A stretch of DNA of 64,000 nt from an uncultured Campylobacterota bacterium (GCA_937141405.1 CAKZQQ010000005.1:310001-374000), one strand, 5' to 3'. Positions 15,312-39,894 are shown, counted from the first letter of the stretch. Numbers and translations are program-made. Notes: generated from the sequence alone by a model not told the origin.

Positions 15312-15344
15312 AAGCATCTTAAGATTTAATATTTTGAGATGCTT
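15312..15344 (+). terminator. hairpin terminator of the 42-residue protein gene
   Basis: Perfect 8-bp arms AAGCATCT / AGATGCTT with a 17-nt loop are followed by a CTTT-rich pyrimidine run. It overlaps the 3' end of the convergent membrane-protein gene. Confidence 0.6.
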
Positions 15345-15784
15345 CTTTCTTTCTTTCTTTTTCTGAAATAGAACATGATAAATATCAACACTACCATACT
15401 CAAAACAGCCGAAAGGATGGCAAGCTCTTTACTGTTATCTACTTGAATAACAAAAAAGACAAACGCATTGCAAGATCCTGCAAGTAGGATCATAATGATA
15501 ATGCCGGCAAGTCTAAGCTTATCAAAAAAACCAAAGATAAAGCTTGCTACCGTTCCGCCACCGATGCCAATAAGAATGAAAAGCGGATTGATATTTAAAA
15601 ATACATTTTCCCCTGCACTGATATCATCGAGCGAAAAAGTGATTGTTCTTAAAAATAAAATAAACATTTCAAATATCAGTAGATAGAAAGACGATATAAC
15701 CTGCAAGGCAACAAACACGAAAGCGAGATAATAAAAGAGTTTCTCGTTTGTATCCCTATCAATGCTTTCAAATGTTTCTTCCAT
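15326..15784 (-). CDS. four-helix membrane protein, paralogue A
   Basis: A 152-residue integral membrane protein with four predicted transmembrane helices and a basic C-terminus. The family is not recognised. It is a clear paralogue of the protein at 22152-22604: the first 15 residues (MEETFESIDRDTNEK) and the central ASFIFGFFDKLR are identical. ATG 15784 is preceded by GGGAG at the same spacing as in the paralogue. The last codons contain a (CTTT)4 tract on the plus strand (15345-15360), giving a tail unlike that of copy B. Upstream lies a fragment of the copD-like gene that precedes copy B. Confidence 0.75.
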   Translation of the reverse strand: MEETFESIDRDTNEKLFYYLAFVFVALQVISSFYLLIFEMFILFLRTITFSLDDISAGENVFLNINPLFILIGIGGGTVASFIFGFFDKLRLAGIIIMILLAGSCNAFVFFVIQVDNSKELAILSAVLSMVVLIFIMFYFRKRKKERSISKY

Positions 15785-15962: not shown

Positions 15963-15981
15963 GATAATGCTTTTCATTATT
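15963..15981 (+). promoter_or_regulatory. putative Fur box of the TonB operon
   Basis: GATAATGCTTTTCATTATT matches the classical 19-bp Fur consensus at 15 of 19 positions, with both GATAAT/ATTAT arms conserved. It sits directly before the AAGGAG ribosome site and after a TATTAT -10-like hexamer (~15953), where bound Fur would block initiation. Iron-repressed expression of the downstream receptor operon is the expected outcome (inference). Confidence 0.65.
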
Positions 15982-15995
15982 AAAAAGGAGTTAGA

Positions 15996-18545
15996 GTGAA
16001 AAAATTGGGGTTTATAGCAGTGAATATCGTATTATTGAGTGTTAGTGGTTACGGGGAGCAAATAGAGTTAAAAGATTTGAATGTGACTGCAAAACTAGAT
16101 AACAATATAACAATAAACAAAACATCACCTATCGAAGATAAATACCTTGGTGGGAACAAAATAACAAGAGAATATATAAATAAAGTACCAAAAGGCGACG
16201 GTACTTTAACCGGATTACTAAAAACAAATCCAAATGTACAATTTAATACAGGATCAAGAAGCTCAAGCAATGCAGGAGAAATTGAACCCGAGGATATCAG
16301 TATAAACGGTGCGCCTTTTTGGCAAAATAATTATATAGTTGACGGGATTAGTATCAATAATGATATAAATCCTGCCGGTAGCCATTCTCAAAATAAGCTA
16401 GATTCTGTATTTCCGGACATCGGTTCCACATCTCAAGGGTTGAACCTAGACACTGACCTTTTTGAAAGTGTTGAAGTCCTTGATAGTTCAGTTTCAGCAA
16501 AATATGGTGATTTTGAAGGGGGTGTGGTTAATGTCAAAATACGAGATCCAAAAAAAGGTTTTCATGGAAAAATAACTGTTTCACACACCGACGACTCCAT
16601 GACAAAATTTCATATAAACGAAGAAGATTTGGAGGACTTTGAAAACTCAACAGATTCCGACTATCAAGCTCAATTTTCTAAATGGAAAACCGGAGTTACT
16701 ATGGAGGGCTTTTTGACGAATGATTTTGGACTTTTGTTCAACTACAATAAAACATATTCCAAGATTCCCCTGAATGGCTATACTGATAAAGTGGATGATA
16801 CGCTTTATCCATCATCAAAAAATCAGACACGATTAAGTGAGAATTATTATCTAAAAGGACTTTGGTATGTGAATGACAGACTCACCATAAGACCTTTTAT
16901 ATCATATGCTCCAACTGAATATACATACTATAGGGAAAATGCAGTAAATAGTGATTATTCCTATGAATCGGGTGGCTTTAATGCCGGAGCGGAGATTGAT
17001 TATGAATTTGATTGGGCAACATTGAAGCAAAATATAGGAATAAACAGCTTTAGCGCATCAAGAGATGCCGACGGGTCACCTATGAGGTCTTGGAAATATT
17101 CCGAAGACGATAAAAATTGGGGGACGGGAAAATTAAGTTATGAAGGAAGCGGTGGTGATATCTACCAATCGCAAGATACATTTACTTATAATGCCGATCT
17201 TATAATCGATCCTTTTGAGGTAGGATTTACAAAGCATATCATTTCAGCCGGTGCGGAATATACATACAAAAAAGGAACATTTGAAATAAAAGAAGCATGG
17301 ATGCAAGGCTCAACCATATCCTCATTGGGAGAAGACGAGGAGTGTCCGGAGGGAGATGAGTGGTGCTCGGAAGCTGCAGTGAGTAGACAAACAGGAAGAC
17401 GTGCGAGTATGAATGGTTATGGCCAATACTTTTCTAGAATGAACTATTACAATAAGGGAAATGTGGAAGCAGCCATCAATAAAGGTGCGCTATGGTTGCA
17501 AGATGAGATAGAAATCGGTAGATTTACTTTGCGACCGGGCATAAGAGTTGAGCGTGATGATTATCTTGACAATACGAATTTTTCCTATAGATTTGCCGGT
17601 AAATGGGATATTTTTGGAAATGATAAAACAAATATCACAGCAGGTGCCAATAGATATTACGGCAGAAACATTTTTGCATATAAACTCCGTGTCGGCAAAT
17701 TATCTCTCATGGACCAACTCAAAAGAGATAGCGTAGATGATGAATGGTATCTTTATAGAGATGGGAAAAGCAGTTATATAGTCAATGAAAATTTAAAAAC
17801 ACCTTATACGGATGAGCTTGCAGGTGGGATATCTCAAAAGATCGGAAATTTTATTGCAAATGCAAAATATGTTCACAGAGAAGGTAAAAAACAAATCGTT
17901 TCCGCAAAGGCTTCTAATGTAGGTATAGATTATGATACTGATTTATATCAATCTCCAACCACATATGTTAATGACGGTAAAAGTACAAGTGATGTCTATT
18001 CTCTTGTCGTTAGAAATTTAAATACATTAAATTTGTTTGGAACAGAAAATAATTTTGAGCTTTCTTTTAATCATACGGAAGTTAAAAGAAATTTTAATGA
18101 TTATGATGACAAATTGGATTCAGATATCCTCGGTGGAGAAATGGGAATAATACTTGATGGAAAAGTTATAAGCTACAAGGATTTACCTGCAAGCGACTAT
18201 GATCTGCCTTGGACGATAAACGCAAGTATATTCACAAAAATTCCAACTTCATTTGCTGTTATGCAATGGACAAATACACTTACCTATACCGATGGCTATC
18301 GATATATCGATGAAATAGACGAGACGGATGATTATTATATATATGAGACAAAAAAATCAAAAAGAAGAATGACTTGGGATTCACGACTTGGTTTTGGCTG
18401 GAAAGTGCAAAAAAATAAACAGCTTTTTGTGAATGTGGATGTTTTTAATGTACTCAATAAAAAGGTTGTTGCTTATGATAACGGTAGCGATATCCATTAT
18501 GAGACGGGAAGACAATTTTGGGTTACAGCAGGATATCAATGGTAA
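15996..18545 (+). CDS. TonB-dependent outer-membrane receptor
   Basis: An 849-residue outer-membrane transporter. It has a signal peptide (~1-20), a TonB-box-like LKDLNVTAK (~25-33), a plug domain (~45-180, with EDISINGAPFWQNNYIVDGI) and a 22-strand-type beta barrel ending in an aromatic residue (GYQW). One acidic extracellular loop near residue 450 carries two Cys (EECPEGDEWC). The start is GTG with AAGGAG 5 nt upstream. The Fur box implies an iron or metal-chelate ligand, but the substrate cannot be read. It is the first gene of the operon with TonB, an ABC ATPase, a permease and a large membrane protein. Confidence 0.9.
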   Translation: MKKLGFIAVNIVLLSVSGYGEQIELKDLNVTAKLDNNITINKTSPIEDKYLGGNKITREYINKVPKGDGTLTGLLKTNPNVQFNTGSRSSSNAGEIEPEDISINGAPFWQNNYIVDGISINNDINPAGSHSQNKLDSVFPDIGSTSQGLNLDTDLFESVEVLDSSVSAKYGDFEGGVVNVKIRDPKKGFHGKITVSHTDDSMTKFHINEEDLEDFENSTDSDYQAQFSKWKTGVTMEGFLTNDFGLLFNYNKTYSKIPLNGYTDKVDDTLYPSSKNQTRLSENYYLKGLWYVNDRLTIRPFISYAPTEYTYYRENAVNSDYSYESGGFNAGAEIDYEFDWATLKQNIGINSFSASRDADGSPMRSWKYSEDDKNWGTGKLSYEGSGGDIYQSQDTFTYNADLIIDPFEVGFTKHIISAGAEYTYKKGTFEIKEAWMQGSTISSLGEDEECPEGDEWCSEAAVSRQTGRRASMNGYGQYFSRMNYYNKGNVEAAINKGALWLQDEIEIGRFTLRPGIRVERDDYLDNTNFSYRFAGKWDIFGNDKTNITAGANRYYGRNIFAYKLRVGKLSLMDQLKRDSVDDEWYLYRDGKSSYIVNENLKTPYTDELAGGISQKIGNFIANAKYVHREGKKQIVSAKASNVGIDYDTDLYQSPTTYVNDGKSTSDVYSLVVRNLNTLNLFGTENNFELSFNHTEVKRNFNDYDDKLDSDILGGEMGIILDGKVISYKDLPASDYDLPWTINASIFTKIPTSFAVMQWTNTLTYTDGYRYIDEIDETDDYYIYETKKSKRRMTWDSRLGFGWKVQKNKQLFVNVDVFNVLNKKVVAYDNGSDIHYETGRQFWVTAGYQW

Positions 18546-19312
18546 AAAATATAACCGTAAAAGAGAGCCCAAATTTTTTAGCTTCATTTATTGCATCATT
18601 GGTGCTACATTTAGCTATCGGAGGGTATATAATTTATGATTTTAAAGACAATCTTAGTATTGCAAAAAATCTTCAAACAGATACATCACTGGATATCTCT
18701 TTTTTACAAATTTCAGATCAGAATACACAAGAAGAGGCAGCATCAACGAAAAGCAAGTCATCTGCTATTTGTCAAAATGAACCGAGTTTTGTTGAAAAAG
18801 ATGAGCAACAGCTCGTTGATGATGTTACAAAAAAACACCCTATAGAAAAAAGTAAAAATCAAATAGAGAAAAAAGAAATTAAAAAGAAAAAGATTGCAAC
18901 AAAAAAAATAGAAACAAAAAAAACTTCTCAAAATAATAATGGGTTTGCTTCAAATATAGATGCGCACAATGATTTTAGCAATACAGGCGGTAATCGATCA
19001 AGCGGTGAAAATAATGATAAGAATGCAAAAAGCGGGACAAATCTGATAGGACTTATTTATGCAGCTCTCAAGAAAAACACAACATATCCCAAGAATGCCA
19101 GGGAAAGGGAGATAGAAGGAAAGGTAGTTGTTCAATTTAGATTAAAAGATCTATCTCACTTTGATTTTATAAAGATTGTTAAAAGTAGTGATTCTCTTAT
19201 TCTCGATAGACATGCAATCAAGATAGTGAAGTCTTCTAAAAGATATTTTCCACCAAAATCGGTAGGCGTGACCGTCATTGCACCGATAGTTTTTAATTTA
19301 AATAACAATTAG
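18539..19312 (+). CDS. TonB-family energy transducer
   Basis: A 257-residue periplasm-spanning protein. An N-terminal transmembrane anchor (~residues 12-35), a long Lys/Glu/Asn-rich linker (~60-165) and a C-terminal TonB domain (~175-257) with KNTTYPKNAREREIEGKV and VVQFRL are seen. The linker is Lys/Glu-rich, not Pro-rich, but the fold signature YPxxAREREIEGKV is typical. The ATG at 18539 lies inside the receptor gene (7-nt overlap) with AGGA upstream. No exbB or exbD is adjacent, so it must borrow a proton channel encoded elsewhere. Confidence 0.88.
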   Translation: MVKNITVKESPNFLASFIASLVLHLAIGGYIIYDFKDNLSIAKNLQTDTSLDISFLQISDQNTQEEAASTKSKSSAICQNEPSFVEKDEQQLVDDVTKKHPIEKSKNQIEKKEIKKKKIATKKIETKKTSQNNNGFASNIDAHNDFSNTGGNRSSGENNDKNAKSGTNLIGLIYAALKKNTTYPKNAREREIEGKVVVQFRLKDLSHFDFIKIVKSSDSLILDRHAIKIVKSSKRYFPPKSVGVTVIAPIVFNLNNN

Positions 19313-19327
19313 TACTTAAGGATAATA

Positions 19328-20170
19328 ATGAATGTAATAGAGTGTAGAAATCTTTCTCATAGTTTTGGAAAAAATAAAATCTATGAAAAATTAAATTTTA
19401 ATGTTCCACGCGGGAAAGTTGTGGGTTTGCTAGGGAAAAATGGTGTTGGTAAATCAACAACCATAAATATACTCATGGGCAATCTTGAGCCGACAAGCGG
19501 AGAGTGTTTAATATTTGGGGAAAATAGTAATAATCTAAGTGCAAATACAAAATCGCGCATAGGCCTTTTGTATGAGGGGTATGTGACATATGATTATCTA
19601 AAAATCAAAGACCTCTATAAGCTTTATGAGAAAGAGTATGCGGCAAGATTTAAAAAAGAGCTCTTTTTTGACCTTTTTAAAAAACTCGGCATTAGTGAAA
19701 ATCAGAAGATATCAACACTTTCTTGCGGTCAAAGATCACAAGTTGTTCTTGGGCTTATCTTTGCAAGCGATCCGGATCTTTTAATTCTTGATGATTATTC
19801 ACTCGGATTGGATACCGGATATAGGCGGCTTTTTATCGATTATCTAAAAAAATTTATAGAAAATAAAGATAAAAGCGTTTTGATGACAACGCATATAGTT
19901 AATGATCTTGATGAACTCTTGGATGAGATTATCATAATGAGGAAAGGTAAAGAGCCGCTCAATATAGGATATAAAAAATTTAGAGATACATTTCGAGGGT
20001 TTTCGCTGCCCGGAAATACAAATTTGGAAAACATCGATGGCATTGAAAGTATTTTGAATCTCGGAGATGAAATGCAAATTTTTGGATTTTTTAAAAAGAA
20101 ACCGATAAATGCAAAAGAGTTAAAGTTAAACCTTGAAGATGCATTTTTGGGTTATACAGGGAGATATTGA
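19328..20170 (+). CDS. ABC transporter ATP-binding protein
   Basis: A 280-residue nucleotide-binding subunit. Walker A GKNGVGKST is at 36-44, the signature is LSCGQ, Walker B is LLILDDY, and the H-loop His is in TTHIVND. Two departures stand out: the catalytic Glu after Walker B is Asp (DD in place of DE), and the signature is LSCGQ where LSGGQ is usual. The domain order with a C-terminal ~70-residue extension resembles ABC-2-type exporter ATPases. It starts 15 nt after TonB and shares an ATGA overlap with the permease gene. Confidence 0.9.
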   Translation: MNVIECRNLSHSFGKNKIYEKLNFNVPRGKVVGLLGKNGVGKSTTINILMGNLEPTSGECLIFGENSNNLSANTKSRIGLLYEGYVTYDYLKIKDLYKLYEKEYAARFKKELFFDLFKKLGISENQKISTLSCGQRSQVVLGLIFASDPDLLILDDYSLGLDTGYRRLFIDYLKKFIENKDKSVLMTTHIVNDLDELLDEIIIMRKGKEPLNIGYKKFRDTFRGFSLPGNTNLENIDGIESILNLGDEMQIFGFFKKKPINAKELKLNLEDAFLGYTGRY

Positions 20171-20850
20171 TGTTTAAAAAAGAGTTTTATAAATTTAAAG
20201 ATATTTATCTGCTTCTTGTAGTGCTTATAGCATCCTTCTTGGCTTATTTGGCATTTAGTCTCAAAGATATGGTTCAAAATTTCGGAGCTTTGAGCGTAAA
20301 TCTTTCTTTTCTTTTTAAAAAGAAATTTACCTTTTTTCATCTAGATGATATGAATCTTATATTTGCTTTTGTCATTGCTGTTTTTGTTTTTTTTCATGAA
20401 AGAATAAGCGGAAGATTAAGACTGTCACTCCATTTTCCTCATAGCAGCGTTAGAAATATTGGTTTTATCATCATGTGTGGATTATTATTTGTCTTTTTTG
20501 TTTATTTTGTTGAAATGATGCTTCTAAACATTATCCTAGGTACCGTGTATGCAAAAGAGATTATGTATGTTTTAAACTATTCATTGTCTCTTAATTATAT
20601 TTTTGGTTTTCTGCTTTACATATTTTGTTGTGGATTTATCATCGAACCGGTAAAGAAAAGAGCGATTGTCAATTTTATTGTTATGCTCGGATCTATTTAT
20701 CTTTATTATGAGATAAACCCTGATATATATGCTCTTGATAGTTTTTATGCAAATGATCTCGGTTTTTATTATATGGGTATTGTGGCACTTTATGCACTCT
20801 CAGCAGCCTTTATAGCATTTGATAATTATAAGCGAGGATATATAAAATGA
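20167..20850 (+). CDS. ABC-transporter permease-like membrane protein
   Basis: A 227-residue, very hydrophobic protein with about six predicted transmembrane helices and no signal peptide. No motif is recognised beyond a general ABC-2 permease character. The ATGA overlap with the ATPase gene upstream and the ATGA overlap with the next gene indicate stoichiometric, coupled translation. It is the likely membrane partner of the ATPase (inference from context). Confidence 0.75.
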   Translation: MMFKKEFYKFKDIYLLLVVLIASFLAYLAFSLKDMVQNFGALSVNLSFLFKKKFTFFHLDDMNLIFAFVIAVFVFFHERISGRLRLSLHFPHSSVRNIGFIIMCGLLFVFFVYFVEMMLLNIILGTVYAKEIMYVLNYSLSLNYIFGFLLYIFCCGFIIEPVKKRAIVNFIVMLGSIYLYYEINPDIYALDSFYANDLGFYYMGIVALYALSAAFIAFDNYKRGYIK

Positions 20851-22040
20851 AGATATTAAAGATTGTATATCTTGGGGTGTTCATCTTGTTTCTTGCTCTA
20901 TTTTTACCAAGAATTATCGATACGGCTCTTGGCGAGGCTAAAAAAAATCCTAAAGTATATTTTTCTGAAAATTTAAATCAGTTTTTGATACAAGGTTATG
21001 ATAGAGAGGCAAAGAAATCTTATTTTTTGACCGAAAGTGGCGATGAATTGAGCACTGAGAGTTTTATGCAAAATCTTCCTTTCAAATTTTATAGCTACCT
21101 ACTTGCAAAAGGAATTTTTCCTAATCAATATACAGATTGGGCAAATGTAGATAAAATAAGAGCAAACTCCCAGATATTAGCAATAAAGCCTAGTTTTTAT
21201 AATCAAAAATCAATACCGCTTTTTACACTTTTGGAATCTAAACCAAAATTTCTAAAATTACAATTTAATAATTATGGTATTAGAGGAAAAAAAGATAGGA
21301 TCGAGTTTGTAAATCTCGAAACATTAAAAGTAGATGATGCATTGTCACAAACCTATACTGATGCACTCAAGCAATCAGGTTTTATTTTCCCATTAAAGTG
21401 CTATTATTCAAACCCAACAACAAGAAAAGTTTTTGATGAGGGCGCATTTTTACAAGACAAACGAAATACAATCTTTCATTTGAAAATGGTAAATGGCAAA
21501 CCTTTAGTAAAAAATACAAAAATTAAAAATGCTACTATAAAAAAGATTATAATTAAAGAAAATCAACGAAAAGAGTTTTACGGTGCACTTATAGACGATT
21601 CAGGAGTAAAGCTCATTAGTTATGATAACTATAAACTTATACCGCTTCCAGGCAGCATGTACGAGCCGGAAAGCATGGTTTATTCTCTTTTTATAACGCC
21701 ACTTAGCAAGACGGTTATTATAAATATGGATGATAAAGTTGAAGCATATAAGCTAGATAATAGCTATCAAATATTGAGGAATTTTTCTTTTCCGATTGAA
21801 AAAAACAATCAATGGATGACAAATATAAAAAAATATCTTTTACCCTTTACATTGAAGAGAAAGGATGGATATAGGTATGAGTATACTCTAAGTGATTTTA
21901 GTTTTTTAGTGCTTTTGGCAAATGCATTATTTGTATTACTCTATTTTGGCTTAACTTTTAAAAGAAAAGTACCGATTTTACATTTTATGATCATAGGAGT
22001 ATTTGGAATATATGGATTTATAGCACTTTGTTTATATTGA
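20847..22040 (+). CDS. membrane protein with large extracytoplasmic domain (DUF4857-like)
   Basis: A 397-residue protein with one N-terminal transmembrane helix (~5-24), a ~300-residue soluble region probably in the periplasm, and two C-terminal helices (~352-395). I think it matches DUF4857, which I recall beside ABC transporters in Bacteroidota, but this needs a profile search. No enzymatic motif is seen. It is coupled to the permease by an ATGA overlap and ends the operon before a strong hairpin. A role as periplasmic partner or second permease of the ABC unit is inference. Confidence 0.65.
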   Translation: MKILKIVYLGVFILFLALFLPRIIDTALGEAKKNPKVYFSENLNQFLIQGYDREAKKSYFLTESGDELSTESFMQNLPFKFYSYLLAKGIFPNQYTDWANVDKIRANSQILAIKPSFYNQKSIPLFTLLESKPKFLKLQFNNYGIRGKKDRIEFVNLETLKVDDALSQTYTDALKQSGFIFPLKCYYSNPTTRKVFDEGAFLQDKRNTIFHLKMVNGKPLVKNTKIKNATIKKIIIKENQRKEFYGALIDDSGVKLISYDNYKLIPLPGSMYEPESMVYSLFITPLSKTVIINMDDKVEAYKLDNSYQILRNFSFPIEKNNQWMTNIKKYLLPFTLKRKDGYRYEYTLSDFSFLVLLANALFVLLYFGLTFKRKVPILHFMIIGVFGIYGFIALCLY

Positions 22041-22052
22041 TTTTTGGTGCTC

Positions 22053-22078
22053 CTCCACCCCTATGTATTTGGGTGGAG
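22053..22078 (+). terminator. hairpin terminator of the TonB/ABC operon
   Basis: Perfect 8-bp GC-rich arms CTCCACCC / GGGTGGAG with a 10-nt loop lie 13 nt after the last stop codon, followed by TTTAAAG. The T-run is short, so it may be only partly rho-independent. Confidence 0.65.
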
Positions 22079-22151: not shown

Positions 22152-22604
22152 TTATTTTAGTGCAAGCTTTCTTTTTCTTTCTCTAAAATAGAGCACGATA
22201 AATATCAACACCGTTACACTTGCTCCGGCAACAAAGAGAACAAGCTCTCCCCCACTCTTTTTTCCCATAATAGAAAATAAAAAGAGATTACAAAAACCTG
22301 CAACAAAGATCATGATGATAGCCCCGAGAGTTCTTAGTTTGTCAAAAAAACCAAAGATAAAGCTTGCTATTGCCATGCCGCCTACTCCAAAGATGGTAAT
22401 AGCCGAATGCATATTTAAGAATACCTTCTCCCACTCATTTAGATCATCAGCTGAAAATGTGAGCGTCTTAAATATAGCAAAAATGAGTTCAAAAGCGAGA
22501 AAGTAGTAATAGCTAACAACATGGATCACTACTAATCCAAAAGCAATGAAATAGTAAACCTTCTCGTTCGTATCCCTATCGATGCTTTCAAATGTTTCTT
22601 CCAT
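22152..22604 (-). CDS. four-helix membrane protein, paralogue B
   Basis: A 150-residue integral membrane protein with four predicted transmembrane helices, of unrecognised family, paralogous to the protein at 15326-15784. ATG 22604 is selected because AGGAG lies 6 nt upstream and both copies then begin with the identical MEETFESIDRDTNEK. An in-frame upstream start at 22664 would run back into the copD-like gene. It is 17 nt after the copD-like stop, in the probable transcript lepA / copD-like / this gene. Confidence 0.78.
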   Translation of the reverse strand: MEETFESIDRDTNEKVYYFIAFGLVVIHVVSYYYFLAFELIFAIFKTLTFSADDLNEWEKVFLNMHSAITIFGVGGMAIASFIFGFFDKLRTLGAIIMIFVAGFCNLFLFSIMGKKSGGELVLFVAGASVTVLIFIVLYFRERKRKLALK

Positions 22605-39072: not shown

Positions 39073-39852
39073 TTACGCTTTTATGCGATCAAAAAGTCTC
39101 AGTGCATTTTTAGTCGTTATCCTACATAATTGCTCATAGTCAATGTTTAAAATATCGCCTATTTTTTGTGCAACGTAATGTGTGTATGCAGGTTCATTTC
39201 TTTTGCCTCTAAAAGGCTCAGGAGTAAGATAAGGGGCATCGGTTTCAAGCAAAAGGGTCTCAAGAGGGATTTTAGGGAGAGTATGGATGAGTTTTTTAGC
39301 ATTCTTAAATGTAACAACACCTCCTATCCCAAAATAAAATCCACTTTTAGAAAGCTTGATAAGCTGCTCATCGGCATTGTAGCAGTGCAAGACGCCCCCC
39401 TTCTTTGGCTTGGTCTGTTCAAGCATCTCAAAAGAGTCGAGTGAGGCATCACGGATATGGACTATCATTGGGAGGCTATACTTATCGGCTAGTTTGATTT
39501 GATCTAAAAAAACCTCTTTTTGCATTTTTTTGTACGGAGCAATTGCTTCGTGTTCATCGGGCAATCTATAATAATCAAGTCCACACTCGCCTATAGCAAC
39601 ACACTTTTCATGCCTTAAAAACTGCTCTAGGTATTTTTGATCATAGGAAGAAGCATCATAAGGGTGTACGCCGACACTAAAATAGATATCATCGTATTTT
39701 TCACTTAAGGCTATAGCCCTTTTGAGTGTTTTTGGGTCAGCTCCGGGAATAATCCACTTTACGACATCATGCTTGATAGAGCGCTTCAGCACATCCTCTA
39801 TATCATCTATATATCGTGCATCATCCAAATGGACATGTGTATCGATAATCAT
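39073..39852 (-). CDS. tatD: TatD-family metal-dependent DNase
   Basis: A 259-residue TIM-barrel hydrolase with metal ligands HVHLD (~6-10), GECGLDYY (~92), HIRDASLDS (~130), HCYNADEQ (~155) and LETDAPYL (~205). The family acts as 3'-5' DNase in repair and is often named for its link to tat operons. Start ATG 39852. Gene order next to rlpA is the same as in Campylobacter, minus one transglycosylase gene (recalled). Confidence 0.94.
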   Translation of the reverse strand: MIIDTHVHLDDARYIDDIEDVLKRSIKHDVVKWIIPGADPKTLKRAIALSEKYDDIYFSVGVHPYDASSYDQKYLEQFLRHEKCVAIGECGLDYYRLPDEHEAIAPYKKMQKEVFLDQIKLADKYSLPMIVHIRDASLDSFEMLEQTKPKKGGVLHCYNADEQLIKLSKSGFYFGIGGVVTFKNAKKLIHTLPKIPLETLLLETDAPYLTPEPFRGKRNEPAYTHYVAQKIGDILNIDYEQLCRITTKNALRLFDRIKA

Positions 39853-39894
39853 AACAATTATCCTAGTATTAAATTGAAACTATTTGTGAGAAAA

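Follow-up and report, generated by a model that had tools for sequence, protein, structure and literature searches.

In the Fus system of Pectobacterium, intact ferredoxin is imported by the receptor FusA, its iron-sulphur cluster is freed by the protease FusC, and FusB is a dedicated TonB homologue (PMC7593965, PMC13253070). FusD, a putative ABC transporter, is thought to import the freed cluster, according to PMC7593965, PMC13253070 and PMC6793856, and FusA and YddB are presented in the last of these as the founding receptors of “protease-associated import systems”. Within the FusA family, a protein substrate is proven for FusA only, and only in Pectobacterium has it been established that whole iron proteins enter by way of receptors of the FusA type. 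It is also already known that a DUF4857 protein and an ABC ATPase belong to a receptor locus within the low-iron response of Bacteroides thetaiotaomicron, with 37-128-fold induction of this DUF4857/ABC/TonB-dependent receptor locus in low iron (PMC10434189). The literature searched contained no report linking DUF4857 to FusA-type receptors or giving DUF4857 a role. The operon family described here points to iron as the likely purpose of this domain, which is found in Bacteroides and Campylobacterota, and names its constant partners.

We analysed a stretch of 64,000 nucleotides (the window) from an uncultured Campylobacterota bacterium. Five plus-strand genes are tightly packed between positions 15996 and 22040, and three of the four junctions overlap. 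The first gene, with a GTG start, encodes a FusA/YddB-family TonB-dependent receptor of 849 aa (15996-18545; Plug domain, Pfam E = 1.4e-8, with FusA and YddB matches), and its end is overlapped by the gene for a dedicated TonB protein of 257 aa with one N-terminal transmembrane segment (TM) (18539-19312; TonB_C, 6.9e-15). These genes are followed by those for a 280-aa ABC ATPase of the ABC-2/DrrA/GldA type (19328-20170; ABC_tran, 2.4e-21), a 226-aa ABC permease with about six TMs (20170-20850), and a 397-aa DUF4857 protein (20847-22040; Pfam E = 4e-58); the permease gene has one base in common with the ATPase stop codon and a four-base overlap with the DUF4857 gene. A Fur-box-like operator is located at the promoter, on the plus strand (15963-15981), 14 bases 5' of the receptor start codon. 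It matches the 19-bp consensus GATAATGATAATCATTATC at 15 of 19 positions, a score at which 0.4 sites would be expected per 64 kb in a first-order Markov control, and a Fur-like site is also present 5' of the receptor gene in a 93% relative (L002/L037). Downstream from the operon, a hairpin of eight perfect GC-rich pairs with a weak T tail (~22053-22078, plus strand) is a possible terminator, absent from the list produced by the terminator scan because only three T residues follow the stem. The original prediction, made from this DNA alone, had thus correctly delimited the five genes, the Fur box in front of them and the hairpin behind them, and its expectation that the 397-residue protein would prove to be DUF4857 was borne out. 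A Pfam search of the operon genes agreed with its statement that no periplasmic binding protein is encoded in the operon, and identified no FecCD permease there either; a siderophore importer of the FecBCDE type was rejected on these grounds, as had been anticipated. Elsewhere in the window, a better match to the Fur consensus (16/19), at 39844-39862, overlaps the start of a minus-strand gene for a TatD-like hydrolase, possibly by chance.

A search with the receptor sequence against all solved structures yielded only two significant PDB matches, 4zgv and 6ofr, a family link that the original prediction had missed. The match to the ferredoxin receptor FusA of Pectobacterium (4zgv; E = 1.8e-87) is nearly full length, spanning receptor residues 43-769 and the C-terminal end and covering both plug and barrel. 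The receptor is homologous along most of its length to 6ofr (E = 1.7e-74), which we assume to be E. coli YddB on the basis of the companion entries and PMC6793856. By sequence, the receptor is therefore a member of the FusA/YddB family and is closer to FusA and YddB than to siderophore receptors. Some receptors at related loci appear to be interrupted: in the close relative (L037/L002, a metagenome-assembled genome), the FusA-type receptor occupies two separate ORFs of 536 and 278 codons, through loss or assembly error, and at L067 (G173 C4) the receptor adjacent to DUF4857 is broken into three ORFs, with other FusA-type receptors intact in the same genome.

The ATPase groups with the ABC-2, DrrA, GldA and ABCA types rather than with importers, its best NCBIfam matches being PmtA, DrrA and GldA, consistent with the exporter-like character originally attributed to it. 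In the window ATPase, Walker B is followed by Asp at the position usually occupied by the catalytic Glu (LDDYS); this Asp-Asp-Tyr/Phe-Ser sequence is found in nearly all of 41 aligned homologues, with at least one outlier bearing Glu. The ATPase signature motif reads LS(C/F)GQ in most cases, across nearly the whole family. No Pfam match was obtained for the permease alone, three of 16 permease homologues gave weak matches to ABC2_membrane_4 (best E = 0.12), and a PDB profile search based on these 16 sequences identified no relative. The DUF4857 protein scored 197 bits against PF16149, for which the curated cut-off is 25. It has one N-terminal TM, an extracytoplasmic domain of about 320 residues and two C-terminal TMs. 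In a fused form found in other genomes, the six TMs of the permease precede a seventh, after which comes the ectodomain, at the C-terminus; this TM order places the ectodomain in the periplasm, so a periplasmic location is predicted for both the separate and the fused forms. A comparison of segments of the ectodomain with each other revealed no internal repeat, and a beta-propeller was rejected. The AlphaFold model of DUF4857 (two sequences) had a pLDDT of 39, too poor for the fold to be read, and a PDB profile search with 33 sequences identified no relative; we therefore infer a possible action on periplasmic cargo from the topology and neighbours of the protein.

DUF4857 was present in 38 of 397 sampled Campylobacterota genomes, a FusA-type receptor in 64 and both in 21 (odds ratio 9.1, Fisher p = 4e-9, with related genomes counted as independent). 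Neighbourhoods were rebuilt for 42 loci, and the DUF4857 tree resolved two clades with full support, clade A, which includes the window, and its sister, clade B. In clade A, the permease and DUF4857 are separate genes, with few exceptions, and a KxFDEG motif in the ectodomain is invariant. The ATPase-permease-DUF4857 module adjoins a FusA-family receptor in 20 of 21 clade A rows in a neighbour test, the number of independent cases being smaller, as one contig is entered as both L002 and L037 and some other rows are near-duplicates. The remaining row (G385) is cut by the contig end, with a receptor in the bases that are left, such that a receptor is present at all clade A loci. All five families of the window occur together on one strand at 14 loci (13 distinct), and gene order has been kept across many distinct genera, from four families; the co-occurrence on which the original prediction had staked itself is thus observed in other Campylobacterota. 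ExbB and ExbD are encoded at many clade A loci, and a PepSY_TM protein at several, but not at the window locus. In clade B, the permease and DUF4857 are fused into a protein of about 535 residues lacking the two C-terminal TMs. Linkage of the module to feoAB is seen in 12 of the 21 clade B rows, and a 100-residue protein and DUF4198 are often present as well. The feoAB linkage ties the ABC module to iron independently of the receptor. A scan of genome contigs returned the 93% relative only, and the viral contigs and plasmids searched contain no relative. Two further arrangements were observed. At L071 (1974-16677), the DUF4857 module shares its locus with ExbBD, TonB, two FusA-type receptors and an M16 protease belonging to the FusC/PqqL-like cluster. 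A di-haem cytochrome c peroxidase gene (CCP_MauG; L125, 6721-7788, and L129, 6720-7913) can be found, in another family, 3' of FusA-type receptors that lack DUF4857, an association also described in PMC6793856.

M16 proteases of roughly 880-950 residues, in which the HxxEH motif is intact, are encoded at seven sister loci. The one tested (L066) is related over most of its length to PqqL (E = 1.6e-77) and FusC (E = 2.6e-33). No FusC/PqqL-type protease was found in the window operon or in the rest of its genome (G000, 98% complete). Three M16 matches in this genome were considered as candidates for the missing FusC, and none was of the FusC/PqqL type: a generic enzyme of 438 residues, a membrane-anchored protein of 673 residues with HLVEH, and a protein of 431 residues without the motif. 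The 673-residue protein (L078, 9254-11275, contig C6) has an unusual architecture, with an N-terminal M16 domain and C-terminal hydrophobic segments. As the protease was sought and not found, the operon is not classed as a protease-associated import system: it is a variant rather than a full Fus system. Sister loci do have this protease.

We consider the operon likely to represent a new variant of iron piracy directed at proteins or large complexes. The reading that we favour, with a probability of roughly 0.45, is that of a Fur-controlled, iron starvation-induced system for the uptake of an iron-bearing protein or large iron complex, with the ABC/DUF4857 module acting on the periplasmic side. 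The FusA-type receptor, powered by the TonB protein of the operon and by ExbBD encoded elsewhere, would deliver the iron-bearing protein or complex to the periplasm. The ATPase, permease and DUF4857 may form a single inner-membrane complex with a large periplasmic domain handling the imported cargo, ATP being spent on helping to strip the iron or on clearing the remains, and freed ferrous iron would pass inward via FeoB. At sister loci, a FusC/PqqL-type protease would assist, the window operon operating without one. The genome encodes four ExbB, five TonB_C proteins and two full FeoB, and the existence of the Feo-linked clade makes it less likely that the ABC module is the sole iron importer. 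A large ATPase-driven periplasmic domain would be suited to performing mechanical work on a client in the periplasm; complexes of the ABC-2 type usually act as exporters or flippases, which counts against the favoured reading. We consider rather unlikely a bolder form of this proposal, in which the ATPase-permease-DUF4857 complex is a new ATP-driven machine for periplasmic iron liberation, freeing iron from FusA-imported proteins, replacing proteolysis in operons lacking the protease, and feeding FeoB where it lies beside feoAB. The interpretation initially proposed is supported in part, but “metal complex” alone does not describe the substrate class, given that the receptor belongs to the FusA/YddB family, which is defined by protein import, and that sister loci encode a PqqL/FusC-type protease. 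Nothing points to a role for copper.

The ABC/DUF4857 module might itself transport freed iron, an Fe-S cluster or haem through the inner membrane, in the manner proposed for FusD, with DUF4857 as a tethered capture domain replacing the binding protein. The Fus operon likewise has one ABC gene, fusD, for which cluster import is proposed in PMC6793856, and the window operon combines the lack of a binding protein with a large tethered periplasmic domain. This alternative is nevertheless doubtful, given the grouping of the ATPase with ABC-2-type proteins rather than importers and the position of the sister clade next to FeoB, which would render a second inner-membrane iron importer redundant. The original prediction was to be refuted by a true FecCD-type partner elsewhere, and the outcome is partly in its favour: the genome does contain three full FecCD permeases, but two of the three lie within ~2 kb of other TonB receptors.

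It is equally doubtful that the receptor takes up a small iron chelate, xenosiderophore or haem, the iron being reduced by PepSY_TM proteins and the emptied chelator exported by the ABC module. An exporter-type ATPase would fit such chelator recycling, and PepSY_TM proteins are indeed encoded at several sister loci and in the B. thetaiotaomicron locus, but there is no PepSY gene at the window locus, the nearest relatives of the receptor are FusA/YddB rather than any siderophore receptor, and a dedicated M16 protease is encoded at seven loci, with the one that was tested grouping with FusC/PqqL.

The same exporter-type ATPase would also be compatible with the export or maturation of an envelope component under iron stress, as suggested in the original prediction, with mere co-regulation of the module and the receptor. 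This is improbable: the neighbourhood is strictly that of a FusA-type receptor in one clade and frequently that of feoAB in the other, no envelope gene recurs at the examined DUF4857 loci, and we found nothing pointing to an envelope component.

The operon has a lower GC content (32.8%) than the rest of the window (37.9%), DUF4857 is absent from nine of the 11 members of the genus searched, and in congeners with enough flanking sequence other genes occupy the corresponding place, beside a conserved lepA-linked gene. The low GC content and the different genes at this place suggest that the operon was gained horizontally. The patchy occurrence within the genus might be taken to indicate that the five genes are chance neighbours with no common function, a highly improbable explanation in view of their overlaps and of the conservation of their order in many genera from four families. 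On either side of the operon lies a minus-strand gene for a membrane protein (15326-15781 and 22152-22601); the two proteins are paralogues, with 50% identity across 149 residues. The 93% relative has a single copy, downstream, and neither is present at the corresponding position in congeners.

In the mechanotransmission ABC complexes NosDFY, FtsEX and MacB, an ATPase and a membrane part drive an extracytoplasmic domain. FtsEX is described as a complex of this kind in PMC11491553, and the resemblance of the window's ABC/DUF4857 module to these complexes is one of possible working principle only, no sequence relation to DUF4857 having been found. Like fusA-fusB-fusC-fusD of Pectobacterium, the operon combines a FusA-family receptor, a dedicated TonB-type protein, an ABC system and a link to iron. 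An M16 protease also forms part of the likeness, but in seven sister loci, whereas the window operon and its genome lack a FusC-type enzyme; the ABC system of the window consists of an ABC-2 type ATPase, a permease and DUF4857, whereas FusD is described as a single gene. The YddB-PqqL system of E. coli has a homologous receptor and a protease of the type encoded at sister loci, and the main text of PMC6793856 reports no DUF4857/ABC module or TonB for it. The BT3625-BT3633 locus of B. thetaiotaomicron shares DUF4857, a hypothetical protein, an ABC ATPase and a TonB-dependent receptor in a strongly low iron-induced setting, and differs in having additional PepSY_TM, DUF4876 and fimbrillin genes of its own. 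The feoAB loci of other Campylobacterota have a fused permease-DUF4857 protein and no FusA-type receptor, but contain the same ATPase, permease and DUF4857 families in the same iron context, and the FusA-linked and Feo-linked settings together open the missing inner-membrane step of iron entry to gene deletion.
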